Assembly: GCA_020853395.1 (NCBI GenBank)
Contig: JADYYY010000002.1
Span: 146,609 to 210,608 of the forward strand
Length of the DNA: 64,000 bases
Origin: Acidobacteriota bacterium
GTDB taxonomy: Bacteria > Acidobacteriota > Vicinamibacteria > Vicinamibacterales > SCN-69-37
Reading direction: 5' to 3'
Positions 21,360 through 37,091 of the stretch are shown in pieces (the first letter of the stretch is position 1; each line of letters begins with the position of its first letter). The translations under genes and the position numbers were made by a program. Under the pieces are notes generated by a model. The model did no database searches. It was not told the origin of the DNA and saw only the letters and a list, made by a program, of their open reading frames with translations.

Positions 21360-23690
21360 ATGTCGAGCGCCCTCTTCTCATGGTCACGCCGGCGGCTCCG
21401 CGCCGGGTTCCTGTGCATCGCTGCCGCCCTGCTCCTGATGGTCAGCGCCGGCGCCCTCACCGCGGCGCGCAGCTCGAAATGGTGGTGGGACAACCTCGGC
21501 GGGCCGACGAGCTCGCACTACGTGGACCTCGATCAGGTGAACAAGGCGAACGTCGGCCGGCTCGAGGTCGCCTGGTTCTATCCCTACGGCAACCTCGGCT
21601 TCAACCCGATCGTCGTCGAAGACGTGATGTACGTGTCCGGGCGCAACAACGCGCTCATCGCGCTCGACGCGTCGACCGGAAAGGAAATCTGGATCCACGA
21701 GAACATCCCGGGCTTGTCGGTGCGCGGCGTCAACTACTGGCAGAGCACCGACGGCAAGGACAAGCGCATCCTGTTCACGACCGGGCCGTTCCTTCAGGCG
21801 CTCGACGCGAAGACCGGCAAGTCGGTCCTGGCGTTCGGCACGAACGGCCACGTGGATCTGCGCCAGGGCCTCGACCGCGGCGAGTACGGCGTGCGCGTGC
21901 CGAACCCCGGCAAGGTGTTCGAGAACCTGCTGATCCTCGGGTCGGCGCCCGGTGAGGGCTGGATGTCGCCGCCCGGCGACATTCGCGCGTACGACGTGCA
22001 GACCGGCAAGCTCGTGTGGCAGTTCCACACCGTGCCGCGTCCCGGCGAGTTCGGCTACGAGACGTGGCCGAAAGACGCGTACAAGTACGTCGGCGGCGCC
22101 AACACGTGGGGCGAGATGTCCGTCGACGAAGCGCGCGGCATCGTGTACTTGCCGACGGGGTCGGGCACGTACGACTTCTACGGCGGCGATCGGCACGGCG
22201 CGAATCTCTTCGCCAACTGCCTGCTCGCGCTCGACGCGAGGACGGGCAAGCGGCTGTGGCACTTCCAGAACATCCACCACGACCTCTGGGACTGGGACAA
22301 CGTCTCGGCGCCGCAGCTCGTGACCATCCGCCACAACGGCCGGCGGGTCGATGCGGTGGCGATGGCCGGCAAGACGGGGTTCCTCTACGTCTTCGATCGC
22401 GTCTCGGGCCAGCCGATCTGGCCGATCGAGGAGCGCCCGGTGCCGCAAACCGACGTGCCGGGCGAGCAGTCGTGGCCGACGCAGCCCTTCCCCACCGTCG
22501 TGCCGCCGTTCGGCCGTCAGCACTTCACCGTGGACGACATCAACCCGTGGCTGCTCACCAAGGAGCAGCAGGACGACTGGAAAGCGCGCGTCCCGGCGAT
22601 GCGCAACGAAGGGCTCTTCACGCCGCCCGCGCTCCGCGAGACGGTGTCGATGCCGGGCAACCAGGGCGGTTCCAACTGGGGCACGACGGCCGCCAATCCC
22701 GACAAGGGCTACGTCTACGTCCTCAACATCGACGCGGTCGCCATCCTGAAGCTCGATGACGTGCGGCAGAAGGTGGGCGGGTTCCAATCCATGGGCGCCG
22801 GCATCGAAGCGGGTCGCGCCGCCTTCAACGCGCGGTGCGCCGAGTGCCACGGCGAGGACATGAAGAACCCGAAAGACGATGCCCCGAGCCTTGTCGGGGT
22901 GACGGAACGCTACAGCGAGGACATCATCGCGCAGACGGTGACGGGCGGCTACGGCAACATGCGCGCCGTGCCGAACGTCGACAACGTCGAGCTGACGGCG
23001 ATTCTGACCTACCTCGCGGCGAGCAGCGGCAGCGGCGGTCCGGCCGGCCGCGGGGCCGCGCCGCCGGCGTTTCCCGCCGGACCGGTCGTCGCGTCGGGCG
23101 GCGCGCCGATTCCCGCCCTCCAGAACGCGTCCGGCGCCACGCCACCGGCCCGCCGGTATCCCGGCAACGGCGCGAACGGCGGCAACGCCGCCTATCCGGA
23201 AGGCGTCGCCGTGCCGGCAACCCGGTACGTCAGCGAATGGGGCGTCCAAGCGCTCGCGACCAAGCCGCCGTACAGCACCTTGACGGCCTACGACCTGAAC
23301 ACGGGCGCGATCAAATGGCAGATCCCCACTGGCGACGATCCGGCAACGATCGCGGCCGGCGGTCCGAAGAACACGGGCTCGCCGATGCTGCGCAACGGCA
23401 TCATGCCGACCAAGGCCGGGCTGATCTTCATGGCGGGCAACGACGGCAAGATGCGCGCGTACGACGAAGAGACCGGCAAGACCGTCTGGGAAGGCCCGCT
23501 GCCCGGGCCTTCACGCGGCGTGCCGGCGATCTACGAGTCGAAAGGCCGGCAGTTCATCGTCGTCGCCGCGCTGCCCCCTGGCGGAGGTCGCGGCGGCGCC
23601 GTCGGTACGAACGTCCCGGGCGGGCCGGCGAAGCCGGTCGATCCCAACGCGCCGCGCGGCTACATCGCGTTCGCGCTTCCGAGAAGGTAG
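21360..23690 (+). CDS. PQQ-dependent dehydrogenase with inserted cytochrome c domain
   Basis: 776 aa secreted quinoprotein. Signal peptide about 1-37. Beta-propeller blades with repeated tryptophan-docking elements (ALIALDASTGKEIW, IRAYDVQTGKLVWQF, LALDARTGKRLWHFQ, MRAYDEETGKTVWEG). A class I cytochrome c module lies at about 485-560 (CAECH near residue 492) between propeller halves, followed by a Gly/Pro/Ala linker (about 562-610), and the last blades follow. It oxidises an alcohol or sugar in the periplasm and passes electrons through its own heme. Start and length fit the family. The GMC/subunit-3 genes face it on the other strand. Confidence 0.9.
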   Translation: MSSALFSWSRRRLRAGFLCIAAALLLMVSAGALTAARSSKWWWDNLGGPTSSHYVDLDQVNKANVGRLEVAWFYPYGNLGFNPIVVEDVMYVSGRNNALIALDASTGKEIWIHENIPGLSVRGVNYWQSTDGKDKRILFTTGPFLQALDAKTGKSVLAFGTNGHVDLRQGLDRGEYGVRVPNPGKVFENLLILGSAPGEGWMSPPGDIRAYDVQTGKLVWQFHTVPRPGEFGYETWPKDAYKYVGGANTWGEMSVDEARGIVYLPTGSGTYDFYGGDRHGANLFANCLLALDARTGKRLWHFQNIHHDLWDWDNVSAPQLVTIRHNGRRVDAVAMAGKTGFLYVFDRVSGQPIWPIEERPVPQTDVPGEQSWPTQPFPTVVPPFGRQHFTVDDINPWLLTKEQQDDWKARVPAMRNEGLFTPPALRETVSMPGNQGGSNWGTTAANPDKGYVYVLNIDAVAILKLDDVRQKVGGFQSMGAGIEAGRAAFNARCAECHGEDMKNPKDDAPSLVGVTERYSEDIIAQTVTGGYGNMRAVPNVDNVELTAILTYLAASSGSGGPAGRGAAPPAFPAGPVVASGGAPIPALQNASGATPPARRYPGNGANGGNAAYPEGVAVPATRYVSEWGVQALATKPPYSTLTAYDLNTGAIKWQIPTGDDPATIAAGGPKNTGSPMLRNGIMPTKAGLIFMAGNDGKMRAYDEETGKTVWEGPLPGPSRGVPAIYESKGRQFIVVAALPPGGGRGGAVGTNVPGGPAKPVDPNAPRGYIAFALPRR

Positions 23691-23693
23691 CGC

Positions 23694-24260
23694 CTACTTC
23701 TCCGTTCGGACGTCGTAGCCGACGAACTCCTGCAGGTAGACGTTGCCCTGGTATTCCATCTCCCGATGGATGCCGATCTCCGACGTGTAGTACGCGAACG
23801 CGACGCGAGACTTGAGCGTCACGAAGAACTTCTCCGCCGCGCTCTCGGGACTCGCCTCTTTCGAGGCGATGGCGGTCAGGAGCGCGACGCGTTCAGCCGG
23901 GGTGGCCTCGAGGAAGGTCTTGCCGCTCGTGCGGCGGCTGAGATCGTCGATCGCGGCCAGCCCGTCGCGCCACTCGTTGCGTTCCTCGGCGGTCCAGGCG
24001 TCGGCGAGCTCGCCGTCGATGTAGGCGGCAACACGCGCCGCCCGCGCGCCCGGCGAGTGGCTGTCGGTCGGGATGATCTCTTCGGCCAGCTCGTCGACGA
24101 GCGAGTATTCGCTCGTCGTGAAGAACCGTGGAGACGCGGCCTGGCCCGCCGACAGCACACGCCGCACGCCGAGCGTCGACGTGATCGCCGCGCTCGCCGC
24201 GGCGATCTTCAGCACGTCTCGCCGGTCGAGCCGAGGATCCCGACGATCGCCGTCCGCCAT
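23694..24260 (-). CDS. gluconate 2-dehydrogenase subunit 3 family protein
   Basis: 188 aa. A Tat-like N-terminus (LDRRDVLKIAAASAAITSTLG) is followed by the subunit-3 domain with FFTTSEYSLVDELAEEIIPTDSHSPGARAA. In the family this small subunit accompanies an FAD-containing GMC subunit and carries the folded complex through the Tat system. The start ATG 24260 overlaps the GMC stop by one base (TGATG), so the two are translationally coupled. Convergent with the PQQ dehydrogenase, 3 bp apart. Confidence 0.92.
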   Translation of the reverse strand: MADGDRRDPRLDRRDVLKIAAASAAITSTLGVRRVLSAGQAASPRFFTTSEYSLVDELAEEIIPTDSHSPGARAARVAAYIDGELADAWTAEERNEWRDGLAAIDDLSRRTSGKTFLEATPAERVALLTAIASKEASPESAAEKFFVTLKSRVAFAYYTSEIGIHREMEYQGNVYLQEFVGYDVRTEK

Positions 24261-26047
24261 CAGAGCCGTCCTCTCCTGAATTCTTCCGCGAGGTAGTCGC
24301 AGGAGCGCCAGGCGAGCGCCATGATCGTCCAGGTGGGATTCTGGCACGACGCGCTCACGTGGCTGCTGCCGTCGACGACGAACAGGTTCTTCACGTCGTG
24401 TGACTGCTGGAACTGGTTCAGCACCGACGTGCGCCTGTCGGAGCCCATGCGCGCCGTGCCCAGCTCGTGGATCGACCACCCTTCGGTGAGCGGTGTGCGG
24501 CTCACGCCCACGATCTCGAACCCGGCGGCCTCGAACATCTCCTGGGCCGTGTTCGCCATGTCCTCGCACATCTTCTTCTCGTTGTCGCCGAACTGGTAGT
24601 GGAAGCGCAGTACCGGAATGCCCCACCGGTCTGTCGTATTGGGGTCGAGAGCGACGTAGTTCTCGTAGCGGGCCAGCACTTCGCCGAACCCGCCCATCTC
24701 GATGTAGGCGCCCGACAGATCGCGCACGCGCTTCTTGTAGTCGGCGCCGAAGCCCGGCTGGTCGCTCGCCGCGAACATCGAATTGCCCGCGCTGCCCTCG
24801 AAGCCGTAGCCGCGGATGAAATCCGTGCGGCGCTCCTTCAGGTTGCGGAATCTGGGCACGTAGAACCCGCCCGGCCGCCCGTCGTCGATCGTGCGCGGCG
24901 CGCCGATGCGGTCCTTCACGAGGCCGCGGACGCCCGGCCCCATGATGTGCTCGCAGAAGTTGTGGCCCACGTGGCCGCTCGAGTTGCCGATGCCGTTCGG
25001 GTGCGCCTGCGACTTGGACAGCAGCATGATGCGCGCGCTCTCGAGCGTTGACGCCGCCAGCACGACGACGCGAGCGCGGGCCTCGTAGGCGCGGCCCGTC
25101 TCCGCATCGAGAAACGCCACGCCGCTCGCCTTGCCCGTACGCTCGTCCACGAGGACTTCGCGCACGACGGCATTCGTGCGCAGCGACAGGCGGCCGGTGT
25201 CCTGTGCCGGGTAGATGAGCCCGGTCGGCGAGTCGAACACCGCGTGGATGTCGCAGCCGCCCGGACGCCGCGCGCACGCGCCGCGCCCGAAGCATCGGCT
25301 CCTGTACTTGTTGTGCTCAAGCCCGTCGGTCGTCACGCCCGCGCGGTAGGGCGTGACCGTCCGTCCCATCGCCGCCATCTTCGCGCGCAGCGTCGCCTCG
25401 GCGGCCGTGAGCCGCGTCGGCCGTTGGAAGATGCTGTCGGGCAGGTGCGGCAGGTGCTCCGCTACGCCAGAGATGCCGAGGTAGCGGTCGACCCGGTCGT
25501 AGTAAGGCGCGATGTCCTTGTACGAAATCGGCCAATCCTCGCCGTAGCCGTCCCGGCGTCGCGCTTTGAAGTCGTAGTCCGAAAGACGCAGCGCGAGCCG
25601 GCCCCAGATGGTCGTCTTGCCACCCAGCGTGCGGGCCCGAACCCACGCGTAGCGCGTGCCCGTGTACGGGTGGTCTTTCTCGTCGACCATGAAGTTGCGG
25701 CTGTAGTCGGCACCATTGCCGCCCTGGATGTAGTTGTAGACCTTGTCGTACGGCTGACCGGCGCCGTAGGGCGGCTGCCGGATCGTGTACTCGTTGAGCG
25801 TGAGGGCGTGATGACCTGGCGGCATCTGGCCACGGCGCGGATGCTCGTACGGCCACTCCATCGACTTCAGCTCGCGGTCGAGATCGAGCTTCTTGCCCGC
25901 CTCGAGCATCAGCACCTCGAGCCCCTTCGAGGTGAGCACGTGCGCGGCCATCCCGCCGGCGGCGCCCGACCCGACGACGATCGCGTCGTAGGTGCGCGTC
26001 AGGTCGGCATCGGGCTGGGGCGTCTGAAGGAACCGGAGAAGCGGCAT
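24260..26047 (-). CDS. GMC family FAD-dependent oxidoreductase
   Basis: 595 aa. N-terminal dinucleotide-binding motif YDAIVVGSGAAGGMAAHVL with the distal LMLEAG acid. Substrate domain; C-terminal FVVDGSSHVSASCQNPTWTIMALAWR holds the usual catalytic His and Asn region. It resembles the large subunit of periplasmic sugar or alcohol dehydrogenases paired with subunit 3. No own Tat signal is visible, so it is probably exported with subunit 3. ATG 26047 is used; a TTG 10 codons earlier overlaps the inverted repeat upstream. Substrate unknown. Confidence 0.92.
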   Translation of the reverse strand: MPLLRFLQTPQPDADLTRTYDAIVVGSGAAGGMAAHVLTSKGLEVLMLEAGKKLDLDRELKSMEWPYEHPRRGQMPPGHHALTLNEYTIRQPPYGAGQPYDKVYNYIQGGNGADYSRNFMVDEKDHPYTGTRYAWVRARTLGGKTTIWGRLALRLSDYDFKARRRDGYGEDWPISYKDIAPYYDRVDRYLGISGVAEHLPHLPDSIFQRPTRLTAAEATLRAKMAAMGRTVTPYRAGVTTDGLEHNKYRSRCFGRGACARRPGGCDIHAVFDSPTGLIYPAQDTGRLSLRTNAVVREVLVDERTGKASGVAFLDAETGRAYEARARVVVLAASTLESARIMLLSKSQAHPNGIGNSSGHVGHNFCEHIMGPGVRGLVKDRIGAPRTIDDGRPGGFYVPRFRNLKERRTDFIRGYGFEGSAGNSMFAASDQPGFGADYKKRVRDLSGAYIEMGGFGEVLARYENYVALDPNTTDRWGIPVLRFHYQFGDNEKKMCEDMANTAQEMFEAAGFEIVGVSRTPLTEGWSIHELGTARMGSDRRTSVLNQFQQSHDVKNLFVVDGSSHVSASCQNPTWTIMALAWRSCDYLAEEFRRGRL

Positions 26048-32111: not shown

Positions 32112-33095
32112 ATGAGCAACAAGCTCGTCAGACTCAGCAGGAAGGCGTGGTGGGCGTGCGCGATTCTCGTCTGGCTCGCCGCGCTCGTGAGCGTGCAGGC
32201 GGACGATCGGGCCCCACGAGGGCCGGAAAAGTCCGCAGCCGCCCAGAATCCTCCTCAGCAATCACCGGCCGCCGCCGGCCCCGACCAGTACGTGGGCAAC
32301 GAGTCCTGTCTCGGCTGCCACGACGAGGCGCGTGAAGGGTACGAGCGCAGCCTGCATCACTTCGGCAACGATCGGCGCACTCCTGCAGCGGATCGTGGCT
32401 GCGAGACGTGCCATGGGCCGAACAGCCGGCACGCCGACGATCCGGACCACGTGCCGCCGACGCGGGATCTCAAGACGCTCCCGGCCGACGACCTCAACGC
32501 GATCTGCACCACGTGCCATAGCCGCGGCGAGCACGCGCTCTGGGACGGCAGCGAGCACGAGCGTCGCGACGTGGCGTGCACGGCCTGCCACAGCATGCAC
32601 AGCGCCAAATCGGAAGAGGGCTTCCTCAAGGGACGGACCGAGATGGAGACCTGTGCCACCTGCCATCGCGACAAGGTCGCGCGGCAGGATCGGTCGGGGC
32701 ACATGCCGCTGCGCGAGGGCAAGCTGGCGTGCTCGAGCTGCCACAACCCGCACGGGTCGACGAACGTGCGGCTGCTCCGCACGGGGGACTCGATCGCCGA
32801 GACCTGCACCTCCTGTCATGCCGACAAGCGCGGGCCGTTCCTGTACGAGCACGCGCCGAGCCGTGACGGCTGCGTCACCTGTCACGATCCGCACGGTTCG
32901 TCCAACGAACGGATGCTCGTCGTGAAGACGCCGATGCTGTGCCAGCGCTGCCACGTCGCGACGCGGCATCCAAGCACGATCTACGACCAGGCCCTCATCA
33001 ACACCAGCGTGCGCGTCTACGCGCGATCGTGCGTCACCTGCCACGCGAACATTCACGGCTCGAATCACCCTGCCGGGCGATTCTTCATCCGGTGA
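32112..33095 (+). CDS. decaheme c-type cytochrome (DmsE/MtrA-like)
   Basis: 327 aa, close to MtrA length (about 330). Signal peptide (about 1-30, WWACAILVWLAALVSVQA). Ten CxxCH motifs can be counted from CLGCH (66-70) through CETCH, CTTCH, CTACH, CATCH, CSSCH, CTSCH, CVTCH and CQRCH to a last CVTCH near residue 307, with distal His residues in NPHGS and DPHGS repeats. In the known systems this periplasmic cytochrome inserts in an MtrB barrel and conducts electrons across the outer membrane. ATG 32112 follows AAGGGACGG. The MtrB-type gene begins 11 bp downstream. Confidence 0.95.
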   Translation: MSNKLVRLSRKAWWACAILVWLAALVSVQADDRAPRGPEKSAAAQNPPQQSPAAAGPDQYVGNESCLGCHDEAREGYERSLHHFGNDRRTPAADRGCETCHGPNSRHADDPDHVPPTRDLKTLPADDLNAICTTCHSRGEHALWDGSEHERRDVACTACHSMHSAKSEEGFLKGRTEMETCATCHRDKVARQDRSGHMPLREGKLACSSCHNPHGSTNVRLLRTGDSIAETCTSCHADKRGPFLYEHAPSRDGCVTCHDPHGSSNERMLVVKTPMLCQRCHVATRHPSTIYDQALINTSVRVYARSCVTCHANIHGSNHPAGRFFIR

Positions 33096-33106
33096 CGGGA
33101 GGTCGT

Positions 33107-35368
33107 ATGCGCATCCGTGCTCTGCTCCTCACCATCCCGATCGCGCTCGTGCCCGCCGTTCTCGTGGCGCAGGCCCCCACCCAACCGCAGCCCGCGGCGC
33201 CGGCCGGGCCAAGCGCGCAGGCGCCCGGCGGCGCTGCCGCGGCGGCGGAGGAAGTCGACGAAGACGCCCTGCCGACGACGTACGGCACGGTCGACTTCGG
33301 CGTGCGAACGACGAGCCTGTCGGGTCCGGACCGTGGCGCGCGCTATGAGCGCTATCGCGATCTCGGCGATGGGCTCTTCCTCGACCGCGGCCGGTACAGC
33401 ACGCAGCAACGCGGCTGGCTCGTCGATCTCGGCACCGACCACCTCGGGCGCAGCGATCAGCGGTTCACCGGCCGCATCGTCCGCCCGGGCCAGGTGAAGA
33501 TCTGGGCCGGCTGGGATCAGATTCCCATGCTGATGAGCCGGACGACCCGGACGCTCTTCACGGCGAGCTCGCCGGCCGGCGTCCTCGAGATCCCGAACGA
33601 GATCCAGTCGGCCGTGCAGGCCCAGCCCGCGTCGCTCGCCGGATTCGTCCAGAACGCCAGGCAGTTCGATCTGAAGTCGCAGCGGCACATCTTCACCGGC
33701 GGCGGCCAGTACATCGCCACGAGCGGCATCACGATCACCGGCAACGTCCGCCAGATCAACCGCGACGGCGCCGTCCCGTTCGGCGGCTCGTTCGGCCACA
33801 GCCAGGTCGTCGAGACGCTGGCGCCGGTCAAGCACCAGACGACCGACTTCGACTCGAACGCCGAGTACCAGCGCGGCAGCCTGCTCGTGCGCGGCGGCTA
33901 CACCGGATCGTGGTTCCGCAACGACGTGACGTCGCTCACGTTCGACAACCCGTTCCGCGTGACCGACATCTCGACGGCCGGCTCACGAGGACGGGCCGCG
34001 CTGGCGCCGAGCAACTCCTTCGTCGGCGTGAACGGGATGGTGTCGTACAAGCTGCCGCGGCGCTCCCGCGTCACCGCCACCCTCTCGGCCGGGAGCCTGA
34101 CCGACTCCGGCGCCGCGTTGCTGCCGATGACCGTGAACACCACGCTCGCGACGGTCGCGCTCGCTCGGCCGACCACCGAAGGCAAGGCCAACACCTCGTC
34201 GGTCAACCTGGCGTTCACCTCGCGACCGACGCGCACGGTCGACGTGGACGTGCGGTACCGCACGTACGACTACGACAACCGCACGCCGGAATTCCTCGTG
34301 ACGCAGCGCGTCGGGTTCGACTCGGGCATCTCGAGCGTCACGAATCCGGCGCTGCAGCTCACCGAGCCGTTCGGCGTGAAGCGCGAGACGTTCGACGCCG
34401 ACGTCCGGCTGGTGCCGATTCGCGCCTTCTCCGCCGGCGTCGGGTTCTCGCATCAGCGCGAGGAGCGCACGCACCGCATCTTCGAGCGGACGGACGACAA
34501 CACGATCCGCTTCTCGGTCGACTCGATCGGCAATCGGTGGGTGACGCTGCGGTCGAAGTACGAGCACTCGCAGAAGCGCGGCGAAGGCAACGTGGCCGAG
34601 ATCGCCGCCGAGCTGCTCGCCATCGGCGAGCAGCCGGGCCTGCGGCACTTCGACATCGCGTCGCGCAATCGCGACCGGGGCACGATTCAGCTCGCGCTCA
34701 CACCGCTCAGCACCATGTCGGTCAACGCGTCGGTGGCCGCCGGCAAGGACGACTACCTCGAGAGCCTGTTCGGCCTCCGCGACAACAGCCATCGGGTGTA
34801 CACGACCGGTGTCGACTTCGCGCCGTCGGAGTACGTCACGGCAGGCCTGTCGTATTCGTTCGAGCAGTACAAGTCGCTGTCCCGATCGCGGCAGGCGAAC
34901 CCGGGGGTGCAGTTCGACGACCCGTCGCGCAACTGGGCCACGAACACGACGGACCGGGCACACTCGGTCATCGCGCATCTCGAGCTGCTGCAACTGGTGC
35001 AGAATCTCGACGTGCAGGTGTGGGCCGACCACAGCCGGACCCGCGGGCTCTATCGCTACACGACCGGGGCCGTCGTCGATCGGACGCTGCCGGAAGAGGT
35101 GGTCGTGCCGACGTCGCTCCCCGATCCGACGCAGCTTCCCCCGGTCACGAGCGGCCTGACGCGAGGTACTATCGATGTGACGTACGCGCTCTCGGAGCGA
35201 TGGAGCGTGGGGCTGTCCACCTGGTACGAGCGGTATCGCGTGCGGGATTTCAGTCTCGACGCGGAAGCGCTGTCGCGGCTCGATCCGGCAGGCGCCCTCT
35301 TGCTCGGCTACCAGTACCTGCCCTACACCGCGACGACCCTCTGGGGGCGCGCCATCTACAAGTTCTGA
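33107..35368 (+). CDS. MtrB/PioB family outer-membrane beta-barrel porin
   Basis: 753 aa. Signal peptide (MRIRALLLTIPIALVPAVLVAQ), Pro/Ala linker, then a long run of alternating amphipathic beta strands typical of a large (roughly 26-28 strand) barrel, e.g. YGTVDFGVRTTSLSG near the N-terminus, ending ATTLWGRAIYKF with a C-terminal Phe as outer-membrane assembly signal. It sheathes the decaheme cytochrome in the outer membrane. GGGAGG lies 5 nt before ATG 33107. Directly downstream of its cytochrome partner, as in mtrAB/pioAB. Confidence 0.92.
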   Translation: MRIRALLLTIPIALVPAVLVAQAPTQPQPAAPAGPSAQAPGGAAAAAEEVDEDALPTTYGTVDFGVRTTSLSGPDRGARYERYRDLGDGLFLDRGRYSTQQRGWLVDLGTDHLGRSDQRFTGRIVRPGQVKIWAGWDQIPMLMSRTTRTLFTASSPAGVLEIPNEIQSAVQAQPASLAGFVQNARQFDLKSQRHIFTGGGQYIATSGITITGNVRQINRDGAVPFGGSFGHSQVVETLAPVKHQTTDFDSNAEYQRGSLLVRGGYTGSWFRNDVTSLTFDNPFRVTDISTAGSRGRAALAPSNSFVGVNGMVSYKLPRRSRVTATLSAGSLTDSGAALLPMTVNTTLATVALARPTTEGKANTSSVNLAFTSRPTRTVDVDVRYRTYDYDNRTPEFLVTQRVGFDSGISSVTNPALQLTEPFGVKRETFDADVRLVPIRAFSAGVGFSHQREERTHRIFERTDDNTIRFSVDSIGNRWVTLRSKYEHSQKRGEGNVAEIAAELLAIGEQPGLRHFDIASRNRDRGTIQLALTPLSTMSVNASVAAGKDDYLESLFGLRDNSHRVYTTGVDFAPSEYVTAGLSYSFEQYKSLSRSRQANPGVQFDDPSRNWATNTTDRAHSVIAHLELLQLVQNLDVQVWADHSRTRGLYRYTTGAVVDRTLPEEVVVPTSLPDPTQLPPVTSGLTRGTIDVTYALSERWSVGLSTWYERYRVRDFSLDAEALSRLDPAGALLLGYQYLPYTATTLWGRAIYKF

Positions 35369-35384
35369 CGGAGGAGCGAACGAC

Positions 35385-35747
35385 ATGACGCGAACACTGG
35401 GAGCAGTTGCGGTGGCCGTGGCCCTGACCGGCGGCACGGTCTTCGGCCAGGCGCCCGATCCGAAGCTCGTCGATCAGGGCAAGAAGCTGTACGCCACGTA
35501 CAAGTGCGACAAGTGCCACATGATCGGCGGCAAGGGCAGCAAGAAGGGCCCGCTCGACGGCGTCGGCGCCAAGCTCTCTCCCACGGAGATCCGGCAGTGG
35601 CTCACGCATCCAGCCGAGATGGAGGCGAAGCTCGAGAAGCCGCCCAAGGGCACCGACTCGATGGCCAACGCGCTGAAGACGAAGAACATCGAGCCGGCCG
35701 AAGTCGACGCGCTGGTCGCCTACCTGCGCACGTTGACGAAGAAGTAG
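35385..35747 (+). CDS. small monoheme cytochrome c
   Basis: 120 aa secreted class I-like cytochrome. Signal peptide about 1-22, a single CDKCH at about 41-45 and a Met-containing segment (KGTDSMANALK) likely supplying the axial ligand. C-terminal helix VDALVAYLRTL. Third gene of the conduit operon, 16 bp after the barrel gene. A soluble periplasmic shuttle between the NapC-like protein and the decaheme cytochrome is the natural inference. Confidence 0.9.
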   Translation: MTRTLGAVAVAVALTGGTVFGQAPDPKLVDQGKKLYATYKCDKCHMIGGKGSKKGPLDGVGAKLSPTEIRQWLTHPAEMEAKLEKPPKGTDSMANALKTKNIEPAEVDALVAYLRTLTKK

Positions 35748-35765
35748 CGGCCAGACGAGGACGCG

Positions 35766-37091
35766 ATGACGCCAGACGACGCCCGAGACTCGGTGCCGAG
35801 GCTCGCCCGCAATCCGGTCTCGATCGCCGGCGCGTGGCTCACGACGCTGAGCGTCATCGCGTTCTGCGCCTACGTGGCGCTCGAGCAGTTCGGCCTGCTG
35901 GCGTCGCCCTACGCCGGGCTGTTCGGCTTCGTGTTCGCTCCGGCGTGCTTTCTCTTCGGTCTGCTGCTGATCCCGATTGGCATCGGGATCGAAGGACGCC
36001 GCCGGCGCCGCGGGCGCGCCGCCTGGCGATGGCCCGCGATCGATCTTTCGGACGCCCGCACGCGCACGGTGCTCGTGGCGATCGCAGGATTGACGATCAT
36101 CAATCTCGCCATCGTGTCGGTGGCGGGCGTCGGTCTCGTCCACTACTCCGAGTCCAACGAGTTCTGCGGGGGACTCTGCCACGTGCCCATGGAGCCCGAG
36201 GCCACCGCGCACGAGCAGAACGCCCACTCGCGGGTGGACTGCGTCGCGTGCCACGTCGGCCCCGGCGTGAGCGGCGCCGTGACGGCGAAGATGAACGGCA
36301 CCAGGCAGCTCTGGGGCGTGATCACCGGCAACTATCACCGGCCCATCCCGTCGCCGCGCGAGCGGATGCCGGTGCCTGGCCAGACCTGCAACCGTTGTCA
36401 TGCGCCCGTGGCGCCGGACCGCACCGTGCAGCGCGTCTTCCGCGAGCACAAAGACAACGAGACCAGCAGCGAGATCACCACCACGCTCCTGATGTACACG
36501 GGCAAGAACCACTGGCACGCCAGGCCGGACGTCGTCGTCGAGTTCGCCGCTGAAGCCGACGACCTGAAGACCATTCCGTACGTCAAGGTCACCGAGAACG
36601 GCAAGGTGACCGAGTACTTCGCGGAGGGCGTCACGGCGCCCCCGCAGGGTCGGCCGCTCGTCCGCATGGACTGCGTCGACTGCCACAACAGGCCGGCACA
36701 CACGCTGGCCCAGACGCCGGCCCAGGTCGTCGACCAGGCGATCGTGCGCCGCGAGATCGACACGGCCCTGCCGTTCGCCCGGAGCGAGATGGTCGAGGCG
36801 CTCGGCGCGGAGTACCCCGCCGGCACGGACGCGAGGCAGGCCATCGCCGCCAGGCTCACCGAGAAGTTCGGCACGAGCCCCGCGGCGAAGCAGGCGGTGG
36901 CGGTGGCGATCCGGCTCTACTCCGAGCACGTGTTCCCTCGCATGAACGTCACGTGGGACACGTACACGAACCAGCTCTTCCACATCGACGACACGGGCTG
37001 CTTCCGCTGTCATACCGACGAGCACAAGACGAAGGACGCCGAGCCCAAGGTGGTGCGACAGGATTGCGATCTCTGCCATCTCGAGCAGTAG
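35766..37091 (+). CDS. NapC/NirT-like inner-membrane multiheme cytochrome c
   Basis: 441 aa, larger than CymA/NapC (about 190-200). Three hydrophobic segments (about 20-45, 52-75, 98-125) precede a periplasmic multiheme domain. Heme motifs: an atypical CGGLCH (CX3CH, Cys134-His139), then CVACH, CNRCH, CVDCH, CFRCH and CDLCH. Role in known relatives: quinol oxidation and electron delivery to periplasmic cytochromes. Fourth and last gene of the operon, 18 bp after the small cytochrome. With the upstream genes it completes a quinol-to-outside path. Confidence 0.88.
   Translation: MTPDDARDSVPRLARNPVSIAGAWLTTLSVIAFCAYVALEQFGLLASPYAGLFGFVFAPACFLFGLLLIPIGIGIEGRRRRRGRAAWRWPAIDLSDARTRTVLVAIAGLTIINLAIVSVAGVGLVHYSESNEFCGGLCHVPMEPEATAHEQNAHSRVDCVACHVGPGVSGAVTAKMNGTRQLWGVITGNYHRPIPSPRERMPVPGQTCNRCHAPVAPDRTVQRVFREHKDNETSSEITTTLLMYTGKNHWHARPDVVVEFAAEADDLKTIPYVKVTENGKVTEYFAEGVTAPPQGRPLVRMDCVDCHNRPAHTLAQTPAQVVDQAIVRREIDTALPFARSEMVEALGAEYPAGTDARQAIAARLTEKFGTSPAAKQAVAVAIRLYSEHVFPRMNVTWDTYTNQLFHIDDTGCFRCHTDEHKTKDAEPKVVRQDCDLCHLEQ

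Follow-up and report, generated by a model that had tools for sequence, protein, structure and literature searches.

Described systems and the four-gene locus

Several described pathways pair a decaheme c-type cytochrome with an outer-membrane barrel. The mto cluster of Sideroxydans lithotrophicus ES-1 (MtoA, MtoB, MtoD, PmcA and ImoA/CymA) encodes a decaheme, a barrel, a monoheme and a quinol/quinone-facing membrane cytochrome, and has no MtrC (PMC13390432, PMC10654088). The operon that we analyzed, from an Acidobacteriota bacterium of the order Vicinamibacterales, shares this content. They differ in the membrane cytochrome: ImoA is a CymA-like tetraheme protein with one transmembrane (TM) helix and is proposed to work inward, whereas the protein encoded here is an ImcH-type hexaheme cytochrome with three TM helices. 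In the Shewanella Mtr pathway (MtrCAB with CymA), the MtrA and MtrB homologues, the ten hemes and the 26-strand barrel (predicted in our case) are shared, but our operon has neither MtrC nor CymA, and a monoheme cytochrome takes the place of STC/FccA. ImcH of Geobacter sulfurreducens, which serves as menaquinol oxidase at potentials higher than about -0.1 V (PMC12307469), shares with our protein the three TM helices, the membrane-adjacent CX3CH and hemes 1-6, at 33-37% identity. It differs by a seventh, C-terminal heme, and its partners in Geobacter are triheme carriers of the PpcA type together with unrelated porin-cytochrome complexes. PioAB(C) of Rhodopseudomonas palustris TIE-1 likewise combines a decaheme cytochrome and a barrel without MtrC, but uses the HiPIP PioC instead of a monoheme cytochrome, and the pio operon has no ImcH or CymA gene. 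Finally, mtrAB is already known from Acidobacteriota, in the mtrCAB loci of Group 5 Acidobacteriia (PMC8805035); those include mtrC and a tetraheme cytochrome and lack a neighboring inner-membrane quinone oxidoreductase.

A complete conduit in one cluster is therefore not new. The preliminary description of this DNA stressed that every step is encoded together, a trait that is not unique because the mto cluster covers the same four roles (PMC13390432, PMC10654088). The association with imcH is another matter. A 2018 survey found no mtrAB or mtoAB adjoining imcH among 71 ImcH homologues; across its 282 quinone-linked cytochromes, mtrAB adjoined cymA and cbcL/mtrH/mtoC and never imcH (PMC6295460). 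ImcH and the mtrAB parts were thus thought to belong to separate pathways (PMC6295460). Our search of open-licence papers found no report of imcH beside mtrAB in Acidobacteriota, although one may exist elsewhere. Within the open literature covered by this search, we regard as new that an mtrAB operon, conserved across Vicinamibacterales, uses ImcH as its inner-membrane component.

Operon layout and coding evidence

The stretch analyzed, henceforth the window, comprises 64,000 nucleotides (G000:C2:146609-210608) of a 4.28 Mb genome that is 99.9% complete. The four genes, their common strand and the gaps between them were reproduced as first described (Table 1).

Table 1. Features of the four-gene operon (positions in the window)
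Feature	Position	Strand	Length and evidence
Gene 1: MtrA/DmsE-type decaheme c cytochrome	32112..33095	+	327 aa, TIGR03508, 6r2q_A alignment
11-bp gap, genes 1/2	33096..33106	+	
Gene 2: MtrB/PioB-type outer-membrane beta-barrel	33107..35368	+	753 aa, PF11854, AF2, Foldseek
16-bp gap, genes 2/3, contains GGAGG	35369..35384	+	
Gene 3: class I monoheme c cytochrome, candidate periplasmic shuttle	35385..35747	+	120 aa, PF00034
18-bp gap, genes 3/4	35748..35765	+	
Gene 4: ImcH-type inner-membrane hexaheme cytochrome	35766..37091	+	441 aa, alignment with 43 relatives

A GC content of 0.85-0.92 at third codon positions in all four frames, and purine-rich stretches 5' of the gene starts, support the coding nature of the four genes. 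We excluded a chance origin of the CXXCH patterns. Among the 422 window open reading frames of ≥60 aa, three or more CXXCH motifs occur in genes 1 and 4 alone, and the profile matches are strong (TIGR03508, E = 2.7e-74; PF11854, E = 7.3e-76). A sigma-70 promoter scan found no promoter-like site for the operon, and a terminator scan gave a count no higher than in shuffled sequences.

Upstream of the operon lies a gene for a TPR/aspartyl-protease-like protein; downstream are two genes, one whose product matches no Pfam family and one for a pyridine nucleotide-disulphide oxidoreductase. None of these flanking genes is an evident part of the pathway, and they were not found beside the operon in relatives. 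Elsewhere in the window, at 21360-25295, a PQQ-dependent alcohol/glucose dehydrogenase that includes a cytochrome c domain has a convergent neighbor that matches gluconate 2-dehydrogenase subunit 3. This pair is a possible periplasmic electron source.

The decaheme cytochrome and the barrel

Gene 1 encodes a protein with a hydrophobic N-terminal signal segment (aa 12-30), ten CXXCH motifs and 14 other histidines, enough for bis-His ligation. It scores 249.9 bits against TIGR03508, above the curated cut-off of 192.2. Residues 54-325 align with Shewanella MtrA (6r2q_A, E = 1.7e-64), and all ten heme motifs are matched. By these comparisons we place gene 1 in the MtrA/DmsE decaheme family, in agreement with the first reading of a decaheme protein of that size. 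MtrA has Trp204 at the solvent-channel cap (PMC7198977); gene 1 has Glu at the aligned position.

Gene 2 scores 256.5 bits against Pfam PF11854 (gathering score 23). Its match to NCBIfam TIGR03509 is full-length with 214.5 bits, just below the cut-off of 240.05, so by this curated model it would be a divergent relative. The AF2 model, built from a 35-sequence alignment, has a mean pLDDT of 85.9 and 26 predicted strands of at least eight residues, a strand number equal to that of solved MtrB (PMC7198977). The best structural match found by Foldseek was MtrB itself (6r2q_B, E = 7.6e-37, TM 0.89 by target length); all other barrels ranked well behind it. The predicted strand number and the superposition on 6r2q_B argue, at the level of a single-chain model, against a barrel too narrow for the decaheme cytochrome, a concern that the preliminary description had raised.

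The membrane cytochrome is of the ImcH type

The fourth gene was initially taken for a NapC/CymA-like protein. We revised this assignment. ImcH homologues were defined by Zhong and Shi (2018) by three TM helices, an adjacent CX3CH and five to nine CX2CH motifs (PMC6295460), and gene 4 has all of these features. Its TM helices are placed at about 20-38, 55-73 and 102-120 by hydropathy and at 17-41, 50-81 and 97-128 in the AF2 model. The CX3CH (CGGLCH) lies next to the membrane at 134, followed by five CX2CH motifs at 159, 208, 303, 412 and 434. ImcH proteins from Geobacter metagenome-assembled genomes (504-518 aa) have three TM helices, a CX3CH and six CX2CH, and align with gene 4 over nearly its full length (aa 8/15-438, 35-37% identity, E = 1e-76 to 3e-81). 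In an alignment of 44 sequences (gene 4 and 43 relatives, including Geobacter ImcH), the first six heme motifs, K175 and Q181 are invariant. The seventh, C-terminal heme occurs in the Geobacter proteins only and is lacking in gene 4. On the basis of its three TM helices, CX3CH, Geobacter alignment and shared heme motifs, we assign gene 4 as a short ImcH, the sole protein of its type in the genome.

CymA/NapC proteins have one TM helix, four to five hemes and about 190-360 aa. Gene 4 was rejected as a member of this group by its three TM helices, six hemes and 441 aa, and by profile (TIGR02161, 12.5 bits against a cut-off of 310.6). Its likeness to NapC/NirT/NrfH is confined to ~110 aa, about aa 105-215, from the third TM helix to the third heme; Zhong and Shi reported just this partial resemblance for ImcH (PMC6295460). 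In a structural search with the AF2 model, NrfH was the only match beyond chance, with E = 0.06 over the third TM helix and the first hemes. K175 aligns with a lysine of NrfH that we take to be part of the NrfH quinol site. At position 181 (window 36306-36308), the quinol-site Asp of NrfH is replaced by Gln in all 44 ImcH proteins.

The monoheme cytochrome

Gene 3 has one CXXCH and matches PF00034 (E = 5.9e-11). Relatives encoded near imcH or mtrAB in other genomes are 36-72% identical. In the alignment of 15 such sequences, the GxG/LDG core is invariant and most have a Met in the C-terminal part, which is likely the distal ligand in gene 3 and would give His-Met ligation.

We consider gene 3 a candidate periplasmic shuttle. 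Co-location alone is no proof of this role because the two monoheme cytochromes of the mto cluster differ: PmcA (about -143 mV) interacts with both ends, ImoA and MtoA, whereas MtoD (+155 mV) interacts with neither (PMC13390432). The potential of gene 3 may be too high for a carrier placed between menaquinol and MtrA, and the monoheme is the weak step of the electron path that we propose below.

Recurrence in related genomes

We followed the earlier suggestion to look for the same gene set in other genomes. In 24 loci besides the window, from at least nine families of the same order, no more than 650 bp separate imcH from mtrAB or from the monoheme gene that follows mtrAB; these loci were picked by similarity to gene 1, and the linked proportion is no unbiased frequency. 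The imcH and mtrAB genes share a strand in 23 of the 24. Counting the window, 11 loci have the compact four-gene set, which comes in two orders. With A for the decaheme, B for the barrel, C for the monoheme and N for ImcH, the order is A-B-C-N in the window, G036, G040 and G020, and C-N-A-B in G027, G046, G077, G091, G016, G028 and G056. In the ImcH tree, the proteins of the 11 compact loci form one clade together with that of G030 (support 99/99). Strong matches to both A and N were found in 40 of 100 related genomes, to A alone in 7, to N alone in 5 and to neither in 48 (Fisher p = 3e-15, ignoring the relatedness among the genomes).

Looser links between imcH and mtrAB, over several kb and often on the other strand, also occur in other Acidobacteriota. 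In Woeseiaceae and related Gammaproteobacteria (L017, L024, L026, L029, L030 and L033), an mtrAB-like pair is found on the strand opposite to imcH-like genes, at a distance of about 4-9 kb and with other multiheme genes between.

Probable exchange of the operon between families

RpoB identities and the gene trees disagree on the closest relative of the window. For RpoB, the window genome shares 90-92% identity with members of its own family and 83% with G036, which belongs to another family. All four operon proteins, however, are 66-72% identical to those of G036, compared with up to 64% (A), 50% (B) and 43% (N) within the family. The pairing of window and G036 has support of 100/100 in the N tree and 100/99 in the A tree. 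Because of this disagreement, the simplest reading is that the whole operon was probably exchanged as a unit between families; old duplication with loss is a possible alternative. Within the window's own family, the ImcH proteins group in a clade of their own, and their genes lie away from mtrAB. In the A tree, the pair of window and G036 is sister to members of the window's family, so that either side may have been the donor.

The chain is patchy within this family. Three members (G004, G007 and G001) have no ImcH, and two of them, G004 and G007, also have no decaheme cytochrome of the gene 1 type, G004 holding a distant one only.

Proposed pathway and alternatives

We consider it probable that the operon encodes an outward, quinol-oxidizing chain for extracellular respiration that works without MtrC. 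We infer the complex formation, the order of transfer, the direction and the acceptor as follows. Gene 4 ImcH would oxidize menaquinol in the inner membrane, and its periplasmic hemes would pass electrons to the gene 3 monoheme. The gene 1 decaheme would be reduced by this carrier, or by ImcH directly, and would carry electrons through the outer membrane from inside the predicted 26-strand barrel of gene 2. MtrAB, or MtoA with MtrB, can carry electrons over a membrane without MtrC (PMC4245776). In its place, heme 10, an unlinked surface cytochrome or a soluble shuttle might hand the electrons to an outside acceptor, for which Fe(III), Mn(IV) and humic quinones are candidates. The outward direction is suggested by membership in the ImcH family.

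The preliminary description had called the conduit complete. The decaheme/barrel pair, the soluble monoheme and a membrane cytochrome of quinol-dehydrogenase type do stand in one operon, but completeness was overstated, given the lack of an MtrC-type terminal cytochrome. No match to MtrC/OmcA (TIGR03507) was found in the operon or anywhere else in the genome, and we rejected membership of the operon in the MtrCAB type on this ground.

That description also allowed both metal or humic reduction and the reverse, oxidative direction; the former is kept here and the latter is less likely. In an inward conduit, the decaheme and barrel would oxidize an outside donor such as Fe(II) or a cathode in the manner of MtoAB/PioAB, and electrons would pass via the monoheme to an oxidase or via gene 4 to the quinone pool. 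The absence of MtrC, as in mto and pio, fits this arrangement, as do the encoded monoheme, comparable to MtoD/PmcA of the mto cluster (PMC13390432), and the four heme-copper oxidase subunit I genes of the genome. We nevertheless regard it as unlikely because ImcH homologues have so far been found in Fe(III) reducers only and proposed as quinol oxidases only (PMC6295460), and because RuBisCO had no match in the near-complete genome, although Fe(II) oxidation does not need autotrophy.

It is improbable that the genes are mere neighbors, with MtrAB using other periplasmic carriers and gene 4 feeding other periplasmic reductases. As the only protein of its type in the genome, gene 4 could serve several acceptors, and in the window's own family imcH is found apart from mtrAB or is missing, so adjacency is not obligatory. 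Against this stand the four genes kept together in two orders at 11 loci and the well-supported ImcH clade to which those loci belong. The least probable reading is that genes 1 and 2 are a dedicated conduit feeding an outer-surface molybdoenzyme encoded elsewhere, as DmsEFAB does for DMSO or iodate. NCBIfam gives gene 1 'DmsE family decaheme' as its best name, but the TIGR03508 name spans MtrA-type proteins in general, and no dmsAB-like gene occurs in the operon, the examined window flanks or the four-gene blocks of the compact relatives.

Returning to the outward chain, the lack of MtrC/OmcA and RuBisCO matches and the four heme-copper oxidases make the genome fit a facultative, aerobic heterotroph that would use the chain when oxygen is short. 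The four oxidases point to an aerobic life style in which the chain may be accessory. For the order as a whole, we lean slightly towards a broader view, in which Vicinamibacterales have a distinct, self-contained operon type of imcH, mtrAB and a monoheme gene. Exchanged as a unit, it would let abundant soil bacteria respire outside acceptors through a Geobacter-type inner and a Shewanella-type outer part, without MtrC. The conserved imcH-mtrAB operon offers a genomic marker of extracellular electron transfer for a soil lineage that is widespread but has little known physiology. The four-gene set is compact enough to be moved to Shewanella or Escherichia coli, hosts in which to see if a single-heme carrier suffices for ImcH to drive MtrAB.

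The same genome has a second porin-cytochrome operon on the - strand of another contig (G000:C15:109169-113602; L104:6169-10602), with no adjoining imcH. It encodes a 908-aa MtrB/PioB barrel, a diheme cytochrome weakly similar to PdsA, and a decaheme cytochrome that scores 265 bits against TIGR03508 and is 42% identical to gene 1.
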